Source: Thiobacillus sp.
GTDB lineage: Bacteria > Pseudomonadota > Gammaproteobacteria > Burkholderiales > Thiobacillaceae
Assembly: GCA_020057245.1 (NCBI GenBank)
Contig: JAGVGD010000012.1
Coordinates: forward strand, 34,216-98,215
DNA length: 64,000 bases
Direction of reading: 5' to 3'
Positions 7,168-30,855 of the stretch are shown here, piece by piece (positions within the stretch are counted from its first letter, which is position 1; every line of letters starts with the position of its first letter). Under the pieces are notes generated by a model. The model was not told the DNA's origin and did no database searches. It saw nothing but the letters and a program-made list of their open reading frames with translations. Both the position numbers and the translations under genes were made by a program.

Positions 7168-8303
7168 AGAAGCCACTGCTCGCTGCCAGTCTGATACTGG
7201 CTGTTTCGGGGTGCAGCACGGTCAGTGACTGGGTCGGCATGGGGCCCGACAAGCCCAAGCCCGCGGCACTGGTTGAATTCACCGCGGCGGCAGCATTGAG
7301 CCAGGCCTGGAAAGCCGATAGCGGCGAGTCGCAAGGCTATCTGTTCAGCCCGCAGGCCGATGGAGACGCGGTCTATGCGGCGGGAAGCGATCAGGTGGTG
7401 AGCTTGGGCTTGTCGAGCGGGCGCACCAACTGGAAAGTCGAGTCCGAAGCCAGGCTGTCGGCCGGAACCGGCGTCGGGCAGGGGCTGGTGCTGGCGGGCG
7501 GCAGCAAGGGCGAACTGCTCGCGCTCGATCAGAAGACGGGCCAGCAGCGCTGGAAAGTGGCGTTGTCGAGCGAAGTGATCGGACAGATGCTGGTGCAGTC
7601 GGATACGGTCATTGTCCGTACCGGCGATGGCCGGGTGCAGGGACTGGCCATCGCCGACGGCAGCCGCAAATGGCTGTACAGCCGTACTTTGCCGGTGCTG
7701 AGCCTGCGTGGATCGGGCGGCATGGTGGTGCGCGACGACGTGCTCTACGCAGGTTTTCCCGGCGGCAAGCTGGTGGCCCTGAACGCCACCAACGGCGCGC
7801 AGCTGTGGGAAGCCACGGTGGCCTTGCCGCGCGGTGCGACGGAACTGGAGCGGGTGGCCGATGTGATGGGTAATCCGGTCGTCGATATGCGCCAGGTGTG
7901 CGCCGTGGCCTATCAGGGGCGCGTCGCCTGCTTCGACCGTAGCAGCGGTGCACCGCTGTGGGCGCGCGACACTTCCAGCAACAGTGGCCTGGCGATGGAC
8001 GAGCGCAATGTGTATGTCAGCGATGACAAGGACACCGTGACCGCCTACGATAAATCCAGCGGCCGCGCCGGCTGGAAACAGGACAAACTGGCACGCCGCC
8101 AGATCACGGCGCCGCTGGCGCTGGGGGTGTGGGTGGTGGTGGCCGACAGCGAAGGCTACGTGCATGTGCTGTCGGCGGACGATGGCAGTTTTGTGGCGCG
8201 CGCCCAGGCCGGTGGCGTCGTGCGCACCGCGCCGGTCGATATCGGGCCGGGATTCGCAGTGCAGACGGGCAAGGGCGACGTGGTTGCCTTCAAGCTCAAT
8301 TAA
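7164..8303 (+). CDS. bamB: Outer membrane assembly lipoprotein BamB
   Basis: Lipobox LAVSGCST, PQQ-like beta-propeller repeats; yfgM-bamB-der order. Confidence 0.95.
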   Translation: MKKPLLAASLILAVSGCSTVSDWVGMGPDKPKPAALVEFTAAAALSQAWKADSGESQGYLFSPQADGDAVYAAGSDQVVSLGLSSGRTNWKVESEARLSAGTGVGQGLVLAGGSKGELLALDQKTGQQRWKVALSSEVIGQMLVQSDTVIVRTGDGRVQGLAIADGSRKWLYSRTLPVLSLRGSGGMVVRDDVLYAGFPGGKLVALNATNGAQLWEATVALPRGATELERVADVMGNPVVDMRQVCAVAYQGRVACFDRSSGAPLWARDTSSNSGLAMDERNVYVSDDKDTVTAYDKSSGRAGWKQDKLARRQITAPLALGVWVVVADSEGYVHVLSADDGSFVARAQAGGVVRTAPVDIGPGFAVQTGKGDVVAFKLN

Positions 8304-26738: not shown

Positions 26739-27103
26739 GGGGGAGGACCGGATTGTGAACTGCCGACAGCATAAGCCATGCGTCAAGTGTGGCGTCAAAT
26801 GATGGGCGTCCGCCCTTTTCCGGATGGCCATCCCGCGCCATGTTCAGCCACTTTGCGCGGCGTATGGACTTGCCGAAAATTGCCTTCTACGGACCTGCAC
26901 ATGCAGTGCGCAGACCTTTGTTCTGTACGCGGTGTGATGCAATCAGCCGGAAGATTTTGCAGTGACGCGCAATACCCGTGTGGCGCGTGAACGCTGTGTG
27001 GGTGCGACAAAATGCCTAATTGATGTCTTGGCGCAGCGGAATAAGATGCGCCGGCGTGAACGAGTTACACCCATAAACCAATCGCCCTCAGGGAGAATAA
27101 ATA

Positions 27104-27808
27104 ATGTCGATTGCAATATCCAGGCTGGCGCGCCGCGCCGTATTCCTGTCCACAGGCGCCGTGGCAATATTTGCTGGCGCGCCGGCCCTTGCCCATGAAG
27201 TGACCTACAGCGTGACGCAGATGTACAACCAGGTTGTGTATGACGCTTCCAATCCGACCTGGGACACGTACTTTACCGGCACCTTCGATTTCAACGAACA
27301 CACCGGCACCGTCTCGAATCTGCAGGGATCGCTGAGCCAGGCCATGACCGGCAACACCGCGTTCCGGGCGCTGGATTACCAGCTGTCCTCGGTCTATGAC
27401 GCCACGCTCGGCGGTCTGTTGGTGTCGGTGTTTCATCAGAACACGACGGACGTTTTTCAGGGTGGCGGTTTCGTTACGGGCGGCATGAAGGAGTATGGCA
27501 ACCAGAACGCCTACGCCACGATTTTCGTGAACACACTCGACCCTACGGCTGCGCTGACCACGGCACAGGTCGCCAAACTGGCCTACGGCGACTGCACAAC
27601 GGGCAGCCTGATGGGCATGGGAATGGGCGCCAAGACCTGCATGACCGGCTGGGTGGGCACGGCGGCCGACCTGTCGGGCGGCACGATGCAGGGCACCTAT
27701 CCCATCAGCCAGACCATCGCCGCCGTGCCGGAAGCCGACACCTGGGCCATGTTGCTGGCTGGTTTGGGGCTGGTTGGCTTTGCTGCACGTCGTCGCGAAC
27801 TTGTCTGA
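27104..27808 (+). CDS. Secreted PEP-CTERM-type protein 1, mature N-terminal His
   Basis: Signal peptide APALA|HEVTYSV; C-term VPEADTWAMLLAGLGLVGFAARRR; paralogue of next gene. Confidence 0.88.
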   Translation: MSIAISRLARRAVFLSTGAVAIFAGAPALAHEVTYSVTQMYNQVVYDASNPTWDTYFTGTFDFNEHTGTVSNLQGSLSQAMTGNTAFRALDYQLSSVYDATLGGLLVSVFHQNTTDVFQGGGFVTGGMKEYGNQNAYATIFVNTLDPTAALTTAQVAKLAYGDCTTGSLMGMGMGAKTCMTGWVGTAADLSGGTMQGTYPISQTIAAVPEADTWAMLLAGLGLVGFAARRRELV

Positions 27809-27829
27809 TATTCCTCAAAGGAGCTTGAA

Positions 27830-28549
27830 ATGAAAACATCCCTGTATGCATTCACTGCCTTGGCCATGATCGGCACTGCACCGGCGTTTGCGCATGTCGA
27901 AACCTATAACGTCGCGCTGACTTTCTTCGAGCCCGACACCCAGCCGCGCGACACAATCTTTAACGGATCCTTCGATTACGACGAGCACACGCACACAGTG
28001 TCCAATCTGCAGGGCATGCTGTCGGAATCGATGACTGGTGATCCCGGCGTGCCCGGCCCCGATGGCGATTACGGCATGACCTGGCTGATGCTCGGCAATC
28101 AACTGGTGTCGTGGTACGACGCAGCGCTGGGCGGCACCTTCGCCGCGACCTTCAAGAACGCCAACACCAACACATTCACGACCCTATTCGGGGGCGACGG
28201 CTGGTCTCCGGCGGCAGGCATTGCGGCAGGCGGTGTCTACTCCGGCTTCCCCGTCTCGGGGTCTAATCCAGGCAACGCTTATGCCCTGATCTTCGTCCCC
28301 GATGATCCGCTGGCTGCGCTCAACCAGACGCAGATCGACAAGCTCGCCTACGCCGACTGCGCGCCAGGCGGCATGATGGGCGCAGTGTGCATGACCGGTA
28401 CGACCGTCGCAGGCTACGGCGCGATCGGCACGATGAGCGGTTATCCGGTGTCGCAGCTCATCACCGCCGTTCCCGAGCCCGAATCGTATGCCATGCTGCT
28501 CGCCGGCCTGGGTCTGGTGGGCTGGGCGACACGCCGTCGCAAGATTTGA
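27830..28549 (+). CDS. Secreted PEP-CTERM protein 2, mature N-terminal His
   Basis: Signal peptide APAFA|HVETYNV; C-term VPEPESYAMLLAGLGLVGWATRRR; blocks shared with protein 1. Confidence 0.9.
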   Translation: MKTSLYAFTALAMIGTAPAFAHVETYNVALTFFEPDTQPRDTIFNGSFDYDEHTHTVSNLQGMLSESMTGDPGVPGPDGDYGMTWLMLGNQLVSWYDAALGGTFAATFKNANTNTFTTLFGGDGWSPAAGIAAGGVYSGFPVSGSNPGNAYALIFVPDDPLAALNQTQIDKLAYADCAPGGMMGAVCMTGTTVAGYGAIGTMSGYPVSQLITAVPEPESYAMLLAGLGLVGWATRRRKI

Positions 28550-30855
28550 ATCCCCGCGTTCTGCTGCTGCGAACGCTTGCCGGCTGGCTTGCGTTCGCAT
28601 GCGCATGTCCCGCCGCTGCGGAGGCGCCGGTCGATCAACCGCTCCTGTTCAACTCGACACCGTTGATGACGGTGATCGTGACCGGGACGCCGGTGGACGA
28701 TGATCCTGTCGGCGGCACCCGTCTGGGGCGTAAGGAACTGGCCCCGCTACGCGCACGCAGCAGCGATAGCACGCAACTGCTGCATGACGTGCCAGGCGTG
28801 AGCGTTTACAGCGCGGGCGCTATTTCAGGTCTTCCGGTTATCCATGGACTGGCGGACGACCGTCTGCGCGTCCAGGTCGACGGGATGGATTTGATGTCGG
28901 CGTGCCCCAATCACATGAATTCGGTGCTCTCCTACATCGACCCGTCGCGGGTCGCCGCTATCGAGGTGTTTGCGGGCATCGCGCCCGTGAGCGTGGGGGG
29001 CGACAGCATCGGCGGGGCGATCCAGATGAAATCCGCGCCGCTGAAATTCGCCCGGGCCGACGAAGGCCTGCGTGTCGAAGGCCAGGCAGGCGCGTTCTAT
29101 CGCAGCAATGGCAATGCCCTTGGCTATCAATTCGGGGTCGCGCTCGCAGGCGAGCAAGTGGCGGCTTCCTATTCCGAATCGAACTCGCAATCAGACAATT
29201 ACGAGGCAGCGGGGAATTTCAAACTGCCCGGCTTGTGGCAGAACTTCGGCGAGGTCCCCGTGGCGCCGGAGGAGGTGGGTTCCAGCGCATACAAGGGGGC
29301 GCAGAATCGGGCGCTCGACCTGGCGTTCAGCCAGTCGAACCATCTGGTCGAGCTTGGGGTGAGCGAGCAGAAGCTCGACTACGAGGGGTTTCCCAACCAG
29401 CGCATGGATATGGTTTCCAGCGCGCCCGATCCGGCCGACCCAACCGTGCCCGGCAACTACCTTATCGACAAGAACGAGCCCGCCAACGTGAACCGTCTGG
29501 TCAATCTTCGCTACACCGGACAATACGACTGGGGCCAGCTGGAAGCGCAGGTTTTCAGGCAGAGCTTGCAGCATCACATGGACATGCTGCCGGACCGGTT
29601 CAACGGCATGCTGATGCCGATGGATACGGAATCCACGACACTGGGCGGGCAGGTCAAGGGCAGCATCGAATTGTCCGAAACCGATACGCTGCGGGTCGGC
29701 GGCGATTTCCAGAAGTACCGATTGGACGACTGGTGGCCACCCATTGGAGGACCCTTCCCGGGTTCGATGTGCTGCCAGGACTTTTGGAACATCAACGATG
29801 GCGAGCGGGACCGCCTCGGCCTGTTTGCCGAATGGGAGGCGCGCTGGAATCCGGAATGGTTGACACTGGCGGGCATCCGCAGCGACACCGTGGAGGCGAA
29901 CACCGGGCCGGTTCAGGGATACAGCAGCGGGAGCTACCAGGGCGACGCGAACCGCTTCAACGCGCTCGATCATCAACGGGTCTATCACAACTGGGACTGG
30001 ACGCTGCTGACACGTTACACCCCGAGCCAGACGCAGACCTACGAGGCCGGTCTCGCACGAAAAACCCGTGCGCCGAATCTGTATGAGCTCTATCCGTGGT
30101 CGACCTTCGCCATGGCGGCGTTGATGAACAATTTTGTTGGCGACGGCAACGGCTACATTGGCAATCTCGATCTGAAACCCGAAGTCGCCCACACGATCAG
30201 CGCAACCGCCGACTGGCACGATGCCGAGGAGACAGAATGGAGCTTCAAGGCAACGGGCTATGCGACCTGGGTCGAGGATTTCATCAATGCAAAACGCTGT
30301 GGCCCGCCCGTGTGCAATACCAATGCCTATCTGACGACGACCAATGCCTACGTGCTGCTGCAATACGACAATCAATCGGCGCGGCTGTACGGTTTCGACC
30401 TGTCAGGCCATCTCCGCCTCGGGAGGAGCGAGGCGCTTGGCAGCTTTACCGCAATCGGCCTCGTGAACTACGTGCGAGGCGAGAGCCGCAGCACCGGCGA
30501 CAACCTGTATCACATGATGCCGCTCAATGCGAAGCTGGGGCTGGAGCAGCGCCTCGGGCGCTGGACCAATGCCGCGGAAGTGCAGGGCGTGGCTGCCAAG
30601 ACGCGTATCTCCCAGGTAAGGAACGAAGTGACGACGCCGGGGTATGCGCTGTTCAATCTGCGCAGCAGTTACGAGTGGAAGCACGTGCGTCTCGACGTCG
30701 ATGTCGAAAACGTTTTCGACACGCTCTATCTACTGCCGCTTGGCGGCGCCTATCTCGGCCAGGGCAATTCGATGACGACCGGCGGCGTGCCCTGGGGCAT
30801 GAGTCTTCCGGGCCGGGCGCGCTCCCTCAACGTTGCGCTGAACATGCGTTTTTGA
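28546..30855 (+). CDS. TonB-dependent receptor, OprC-like (putative copper receptor)
   Basis: Plug and barrel domains; MSACPNHMNSVLSYID (CxxxM) and LQHHMDMLPDRF (HxM); TTG start overlapping the upstream TGA. Confidence 0.88.
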   Translation: MNPRVLLLRTLAGWLAFACACPAAAEAPVDQPLLFNSTPLMTVIVTGTPVDDDPVGGTRLGRKELAPLRARSSDSTQLLHDVPGVSVYSAGAISGLPVIHGLADDRLRVQVDGMDLMSACPNHMNSVLSYIDPSRVAAIEVFAGIAPVSVGGDSIGGAIQMKSAPLKFARADEGLRVEGQAGAFYRSNGNALGYQFGVALAGEQVAASYSESNSQSDNYEAAGNFKLPGLWQNFGEVPVAPEEVGSSAYKGAQNRALDLAFSQSNHLVELGVSEQKLDYEGFPNQRMDMVSSAPDPADPTVPGNYLIDKNEPANVNRLVNLRYTGQYDWGQLEAQVFRQSLQHHMDMLPDRFNGMLMPMDTESTTLGGQVKGSIELSETDTLRVGGDFQKYRLDDWWPPIGGPFPGSMCCQDFWNINDGERDRLGLFAEWEARWNPEWLTLAGIRSDTVEANTGPVQGYSSGSYQGDANRFNALDHQRVYHNWDWTLLTRYTPSQTQTYEAGLARKTRAPNLYELYPWSTFAMAALMNNFVGDGNGYIGNLDLKPEVAHTISATADWHDAEETEWSFKATGYATWVEDFINAKRCGPPVCNTNAYLTTTNAYVLLQYDNQSARLYGFDLSGHLRLGRSEALGSFTAIGLVNYVRGESRSTGDNLYHMMPLNAKLGLEQRLGRWTNAAEVQGVAAKTRISQVRNEVTTPGYALFNLRSSYEWKHVRLDVDVENVFDTLYLLPLGGAYLGQGNSMTTGGVPWGMSLPGRARSLNVALNMRF

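Follow-up and report, generated by a model that had tools for sequence, protein, structure and literature searches.

The 64,000-nucleotide stretch of Thiobacillus sp. (Thiobacillaceae) contig JAGVGD010000012.1 analysed here (hereafter the window; all positions are those of the whole stretch) carries a tight operon that probably serves protein-assisted copper acquisition. The three genes, all on one strand in the list of open reading frames (ORFs), encode two predicted secreted PEP-CTERM proteins, A and B, followed by a TonB-dependent receptor resembling OprC. We suggest that the PEP-CTERM proteins capture copper and feed the receptor for the benefit of respiratory copper enzymes. The source is an incomplete metagenome-assembled genome (MAG; 82% complete). 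The operon consists of the following genes.

27104..27808, + strand: PEP-CTERM protein A, an ORF of 234 aa, predicted secreted, mature N-terminus His31 (PF07589, 33.3 bits)
27830..28549, + strand: PEP-CTERM protein B, an ORF of 239 aa, predicted secreted, mature N-terminus His22 (PF07589, 36.9 bits)
28546..30855, + strand: OprC-like TonB-dependent receptor, 769 aa, with PF07715 plug, PF00593 barrel and OprC homology

The short or overlapping junctions are as the initial annotation described them. Genes A and B are separated by 21 bases, and the receptor most likely starts at a TTG (28546) that overlaps the stop codon of B (TGA, 28547-28549). That A and B are paralogous PEP-CTERM proteins, as also proposed there, is borne out by their mature domains (43% identity, E 3e-49) and by PF07589 scores above the Pfam cut-off of 20.7 bits. 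A-type homologues are present in many of the related loci.

The PEP-CTERM genes are tightly associated with the receptor. A scan of genome contigs with B matched 35 loci over long stretches of the domain, and the receptor is found in the same locus in 34 of them. The sole exception (L052) has a gene of an MbnH-like cluster, then the PEP-CTERM gene and, 31 bp downstream, a gene of the cluster of PCuAC, a copper chaperone. A gene-order survey of 399 genomes recovered the receptor clade in 70 and the B family in 6, with B beside the receptor in 6/6. The co-occurrence across genomes on which the initial annotation had staked its proposal is thus upheld in both surveys. On the receptor tree, PEP-CTERM linkage amounts to one change; with shuffled labels the mean is 24. 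Four loci additionally have PEP-CTERM proteins with a DUF2202 domain next to the operon (L055 at 7272-7931, L038, L041 and L045; the Pfam check covered L055 only).

The receptor is likely a copper receptor. PDB searches retrieved OprC first, both with the receptor sequence alone (5.5e-19; next PhuR, 3e-9) and with a profile of 72 relatives (1.1e-35; PhuR, 3.6e-18). In a Foldseek search with the AlphaFold2 model (pLDDT 90.5), OprC accounts for all 28 top PDB fold matches (TMt 0.83-0.86), followed by PhuR. The residues relevant to copper are as follows.

28903..28917, + strand: CPNHM, predicted plug copper ligands, equal to OprC C143 and M147 by alignment; invariant in 37/37
29572..29580, + strand: HHM, predicted barrel copper ligands, equal to OprC H323xM325; first His and Met invariant in 37/37, second His variable
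29404..29412, + strand: conserved MDM, which may belong to a methionine track; first Met without variation among 72 aligned receptors
29614..29622, + strand: MPM, in line with the MPM of the methionine-track segment of OprC; neither Met varies among 72 aligned receptors

Residues C143, M147, H323 and M325 of OprC have been shown to bind copper (PMC8610252). CPNHM falls on the CPNRM of OprC in both the single-sequence and the profile alignment, and the first His and the Met of HHM fall on H323 and M325 in the single-sequence alignment. The two motifs lie where the initial annotation placed them, match the OprC ligands column for column and, being invariant in homologues, are no chance occurrences. 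The further invariant Met, including those of MPM at the OprC track segment, suggest that the receptor might also contain a methionine track. Among 122 aligned receptors, the complete C-M-H-M set is found in 35/35 of those linked to PEP-CTERM genes, 39/41 of the rest of the clade and 30/30 of the TIGR01778-like receptors, but in 0/15 of the heme or ZnuD-like receptors. One clade receptor (L186, 6209-8386) lacks the plug Met and the barrel His and reads CTTM, which possibly reflects a changed ligand.

The receptor tree (78 receptors, rooted by choice on the heme/ZnuD-like outgroup) places the receptor in a clade apart from TIGR01778 with support of 100, and a branch with support of 98 splits both clades from the outgroup. 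The receptor is a member of a separate sister clade to TIGR01778, judging by its sequence. The search against TIGR01778 proposed with the initial annotation did not place it in that family (126.5 bits against a cut-off of 472), and TIGR01786 and TIGR01785 fare slightly better, at 143. Grouping with a non-copper clade would have spoken against the copper assignment; the receptor groups with OprC and not with the heme/ZnuD-like receptors. The suggested juxtaposition of Cys, Met and His is consistent with the alignment of all four residues to the OprC site, from which it is read, and with a model closest to OprC. Binding and import of copper are predicted from these likenesses. The nearest relatives among named records are from the Thiobacillaceae or close to them.

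The mature domains of A and B appear to form a family without earlier description in the literature searched. Searches with 66 mature domains returned only isolated weak matches in Pfam (each in a single member, at E 0.011 or worse) and zero matches among PDB sequences. The AlphaFold2 model of mature B is a beta-rich fold (pLDDT 96.5, pTM 0.91), for which a PDB fold search returned nothing at E below 0.2. The signals and conserved residues are the following.

27194..27196, + strand: codon for residue 31 of A, the N-terminal His of the mature protein; cleavage predicted after APALA, by inspection
27725..27796, + strand: PEP-CTERM sorting signal of A (NF035944, 37.3 bits, cut-off 35; PF07589)
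28469..28540, + strand: PEP-CTERM sorting signal of B (TIGR02595, 22.5 bits, cut-off 16; PF07589)
27893..28465, + strand: mature domain of B, with no Pfam family, PDB sequence match or confident PDB fold match
27590..27649, + strand: Cys/Met motif of A, DCTTGSLMGMGMGAKTCMTG, aligned to the invariant family motif
28355..28399, + strand: Cys/Met motif of B, DCAPGGMMGAVCMTG (C177, M183, C187, M188), from the family alignment
28433..28435, + strand: Met202 of B, invariant in 72/72

Both proteins have the features of exosortase substrates, with a signal peptide (recognized by inspection only), a C-terminal tail of PEP motif, transmembrane segment and basic residues, and an exosortase encoded in the same genome (PF09721, 241 bits, G000:C7:5438-6214). 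Four methionines (Met68, Met183, Met188 and Met202 in B numbering) are invariant in 72/72 family members, and Met makes up 4 of the 19 invariant columns of the domain alignment (hypergeometric p 0.004). No His is invariant among the 72 aligned domains. Cys177 and Cys187 are kept in 70/72; the two proteins without them miss both, which suggests a disulfide pair. The same Met/Cys domain occurs without PEP-CTERM in L035, L053, L054, L056-L058, L060, L061, L063, L176 and L178. This version forms the C-terminus of longer proteins with Ig/Fn3-like repeats, and its gene directly follows the receptor in several loci. The family member in L054 (8528-10330) lacks both Cys while keeping the Met, and is followed by apparent SLH-like repeats.

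The initial annotation emphasized the N-terminal His of both proteins. By inspection, A and B carry an ALA/AFA cleavage site and both mature proteins would start with His, so that this part stands. As a general feature of the family it does not, with only 17 of 63 members carrying the residue; the main invariants are the four Met together with the near-universal Cys pair. A His-brace mechanism via the N-terminal His was rejected for the whole family on this count. A version confined to a subset was kept because the N-terminal His co-varies with His53 (the His of an EH motif): 14 proteins have both and 0 have His53 alone (p about 2e-11, uncorrected for relatedness of the proteins). Such a pattern is as expected for a His-brace-like, facultative two-His metal site in part of the family. 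Three proteins have the starting His and no His53, and in two of them this His apparently lies inside the signal peptide (by inspection). Protein B of a 90%-identical relative (L032) has lost both His.

Genes with roles in copper handling recur around these receptors. A second clade receptor of the same genome (L148, G000:C159, 6163-11068) is divergent from a PCuAC gene (PF04314, 130 bits); nearby are HvfB (MNIO) and HvfA genes for a metallophore of the ribosomally synthesized and post-translationally modified peptide (RiPP) class. Two loci, L057 and L178, have MbnP and MbnH next to the receptor (matches to TIGR04052 and TIGR04039 exceed the cut-offs). Of 37 genomes, with about 1.2 PCuAC copies apiece, 6 have PCuAC no further than about 6 kb from the receptor. 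DUF2946 was confirmed by Pfam in L039, L046, L058 and L060; ORFs with CxxC and RAPP motifs are also found in L040, L043 and L048, and downstream of the receptor in L057. Inspection of the ORF list revealed no DUF2946-like ORF upstream of the window operon. DUF2946 corresponds to CruR, an upstream ORF (uORF) that responds to copper and lowers expression when copper is present (PMC9426467).

Many operons of this kind may instead be under redox control. The window contains one such candidate element.

27003..27019, + strand: candidate RegA/ActR/PrrA-type box TGCGACAAAATGCCTAA, 101 bp before the start of A, matching TGYGRCANNNTGYCRCA at 12/14 positions

The box is identical in L032, L033 and L066. 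In 41/73 receptor operons, the 350 bp upstream contain a palindrome TGYGRCA-N3-TGYCRCA with at least 12/14 positions matching, compared to 3.3% of random windows, though the consensus was read from the same loci, many of them related, so that the p-value overstates the case. The assignment to a regulator rests on RegB/A-like neighbours and on the RegR-type consensus, GNGRCRTTNNGNCGC, which the box fits; the type of box sought was TGCGACA-N3-TGTCGCA. Across 15 genomes (L251-L290), the same palindrome precedes nosZ of both twin-arginine translocation (TAT) and Sec types, PCuAC, OprC-like receptors and RegB/RegA-like pairs. These genes may make up a respiratory copper regulon under a paralogue of RegBA. 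The RegB/A-like proteins may be a paralogous pair because they score below the curated cut-offs of the RegB/A family. Among the PEP-CTERM loci, the box is present in 18/33 and in none of the about nine loci with a DUF2946-like gene (Fisher p 0.005 against all 33 loci). This exclusion suggests that the box and CruR are two alternative controls.

Further elements were sought with less return. Scans for sigma-70 promoters and terminators gave nothing above chance, no nosZ (TIGR04244) turned up in the window's own genome at its 82% completeness, and a literature search for the palindrome half-site together with copper returned unrelated matches only. RegA-like boxes were also seen in the intergenic region of G000:C159, with a RegA-like regulator nearby. 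In L045 (Gallionellaceae; 3891, 6872 and 11252), near-perfect boxes stand ahead of three units: a TIGR01778-like OprC, the PEP-CTERM/OprC-like operon, and a further TonB receptor with a DUF4198-like gene behind it.

The following course is our inference at every stage, namely secretion and processing, the binding of copper to A and B, its passage to the receptor and the direction of control. A and B would be exported and processed by the exosortase of the genome, and would then bind copper while retained at the cell surface or in the matrix. Cu(I) is predicted to sit at the four invariant Met around the disulfide-like Cys pair, and Cu(II) at the His-brace-like pair of N-terminal and loop His in the window and some relatives. 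A and B would then load the adjacent receptor at its CxxxM-HxM site, and the receptor would import the copper with TonB energy towards respiratory copper enzymes. Expression would be set by the RegA-type redox box in the window and many relatives, or by the copper-responsive CruR in others. The chances are about even for a more specific version, a protein "cuprophore" system, in which an exosortase-sorted Met-site family, some members with an added His-brace-like site, scavenges copper outside the cell and hands it, through direct contact, to its matched OprC-like receptor so as to supply respiratory copper enzymes.

Several observations weigh against copper acquisition assisted by A and B. 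In the wider clade, a PEP-CTERM partner is the exception (6/70 genomes have one), so the receptor works without it. No complex of OprC with azurin was found by size-exclusion chromatography (SEC; PMC8610252), which leaves protein-to-OprC delivery without a confirmed precedent. The window's box matches imperfectly (12/14), and the MAG is incomplete.

Alternative explanations differ mainly in what the secreted proteins are for. The PEP-CTERM proteins might sequester excess copper in the matrix, with the receptor linkage reflecting coordinated homeostasis rather than delivery. Met-rich secreted proteins with PCuAC and MbnP neighbours fit copper handling of either sign, but the constant linkage to an importer-type receptor, the lowering of expression in the presence of copper by the CruR heading some operons of this kind (PMC9426467) and the lack of recurring efflux genes in the neighbourhoods make such a defence or buffering role unlikely. 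Slightly less likely still is that the receptor imports a copper-loaded small metallophore, such as an Hvf-like peptide, and that the PEP-CTERM proteins bind this chelate and not free copper. HvfA and HvfB do lie near the second OprC-like receptor of the genome; however, RiPP genes linked to the PEP-CTERM operon were not found, and the receptor keeps the ionic-copper site of OprC.

We regard a different metal or ligand as improbable, be it zinc, silver or a non-metal role of the PEP-CTERM proteins in the matrix. ZepA is a PEP-CTERM exoprotein serving zinc (PMC10957091), and PEP-CTERM proteins are often tied to biofilm and matrix habitats. The family considered here has four invariant Met but no invariant His, its neighbours are copper genes, and in L052 it is paired with PCuAC where no receptor is present. 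Homology to ZepA was rejected on its motif H-X2-9-H-F/Y-H (PMC10957091), which is missing from A and B along with any HFH or HYH.

How Gram-negative bacteria capture copper under scarcity is poorly understood, and a function is known for few PEP-CTERM proteins. The parts of the operon are of known kinds, namely OprC-type import, exosortase substrates and metal-delivery exoproteins such as ZepA. Within the literature searched, the domain family appears to be new, as do its constant partnership with an OprC-like receptor and its shared regulation. No paper joining DUF2946 with PEP-CTERM was retrieved, and the titles and abstracts combining PEP-CTERM, copper and TonB-dependent transport, together with the ZepA paper, do not describe the present system. 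If our reading is true, an exosortase-substrate family without earlier description gains a function in many betaproteobacteria, and OprC biology reaches a large sister clade beyond the curated model. The operon would then offer a testable case of copper passing from a secreted protein to an outer-membrane importer, making the "cuprophore" a copper counterpart of heme-delivery proteins such as HasA. Through an operator shared by nosZ and copper chaperones, the capture of environmental copper would be linked to respiration and N2O reduction.

The operon can be compared with several known systems. In His-brace copper proteins of the lytic polysaccharide monooxygenase (LPMO) and CopC type, the N-terminal His and a second His bind Cu(II); part of the family here has a co-varying His pair, and the domain has no confident PDB fold match. 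The MbnP/MbnH copper-protein pair adjoins the receptor in L057 and L178 but belongs to other protein families and was not seen in the window operon. The CruR-BfrG operon of Bordetella pertussis (PMC9426467) resembles L039, L040, L046 and others in that a DUF2946 uORF heads a copper-repressed TonB receptor operon. It has no PEP-CTERM proteins, and the window itself lacks a DUF2946 gene. OprC/NosA (TIGR01778; PMC8610252) shares the fold, the CxxxM-HxM ligands and the conserved Met segment, but shows 18-20% identity in the fold alignment, falls in a separate clade and has no described PEP-CTERM partner. ZepA (PMC10957091) is likewise a secreted PEP-CTERM protein tied to metal acquisition with a beta-rich model. 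It serves zinc through a three-His motif under Zur control and has no fixed cognate receptor, whereas the present family combines conserved Met and Cys with a constant OprC-like receptor. A related idea is that of azurin, a copper protein secreted by the type VI secretion system (T6SS) of Pseudomonas aeruginosa, loading OprC (PMC6907878; PMC8610252). Azurin differs from A and B, and SEC did not reproduce its interaction with OprC (PMC8610252); in the Thiobacillus operon, the secreted proteins are encoded together with their receptor.

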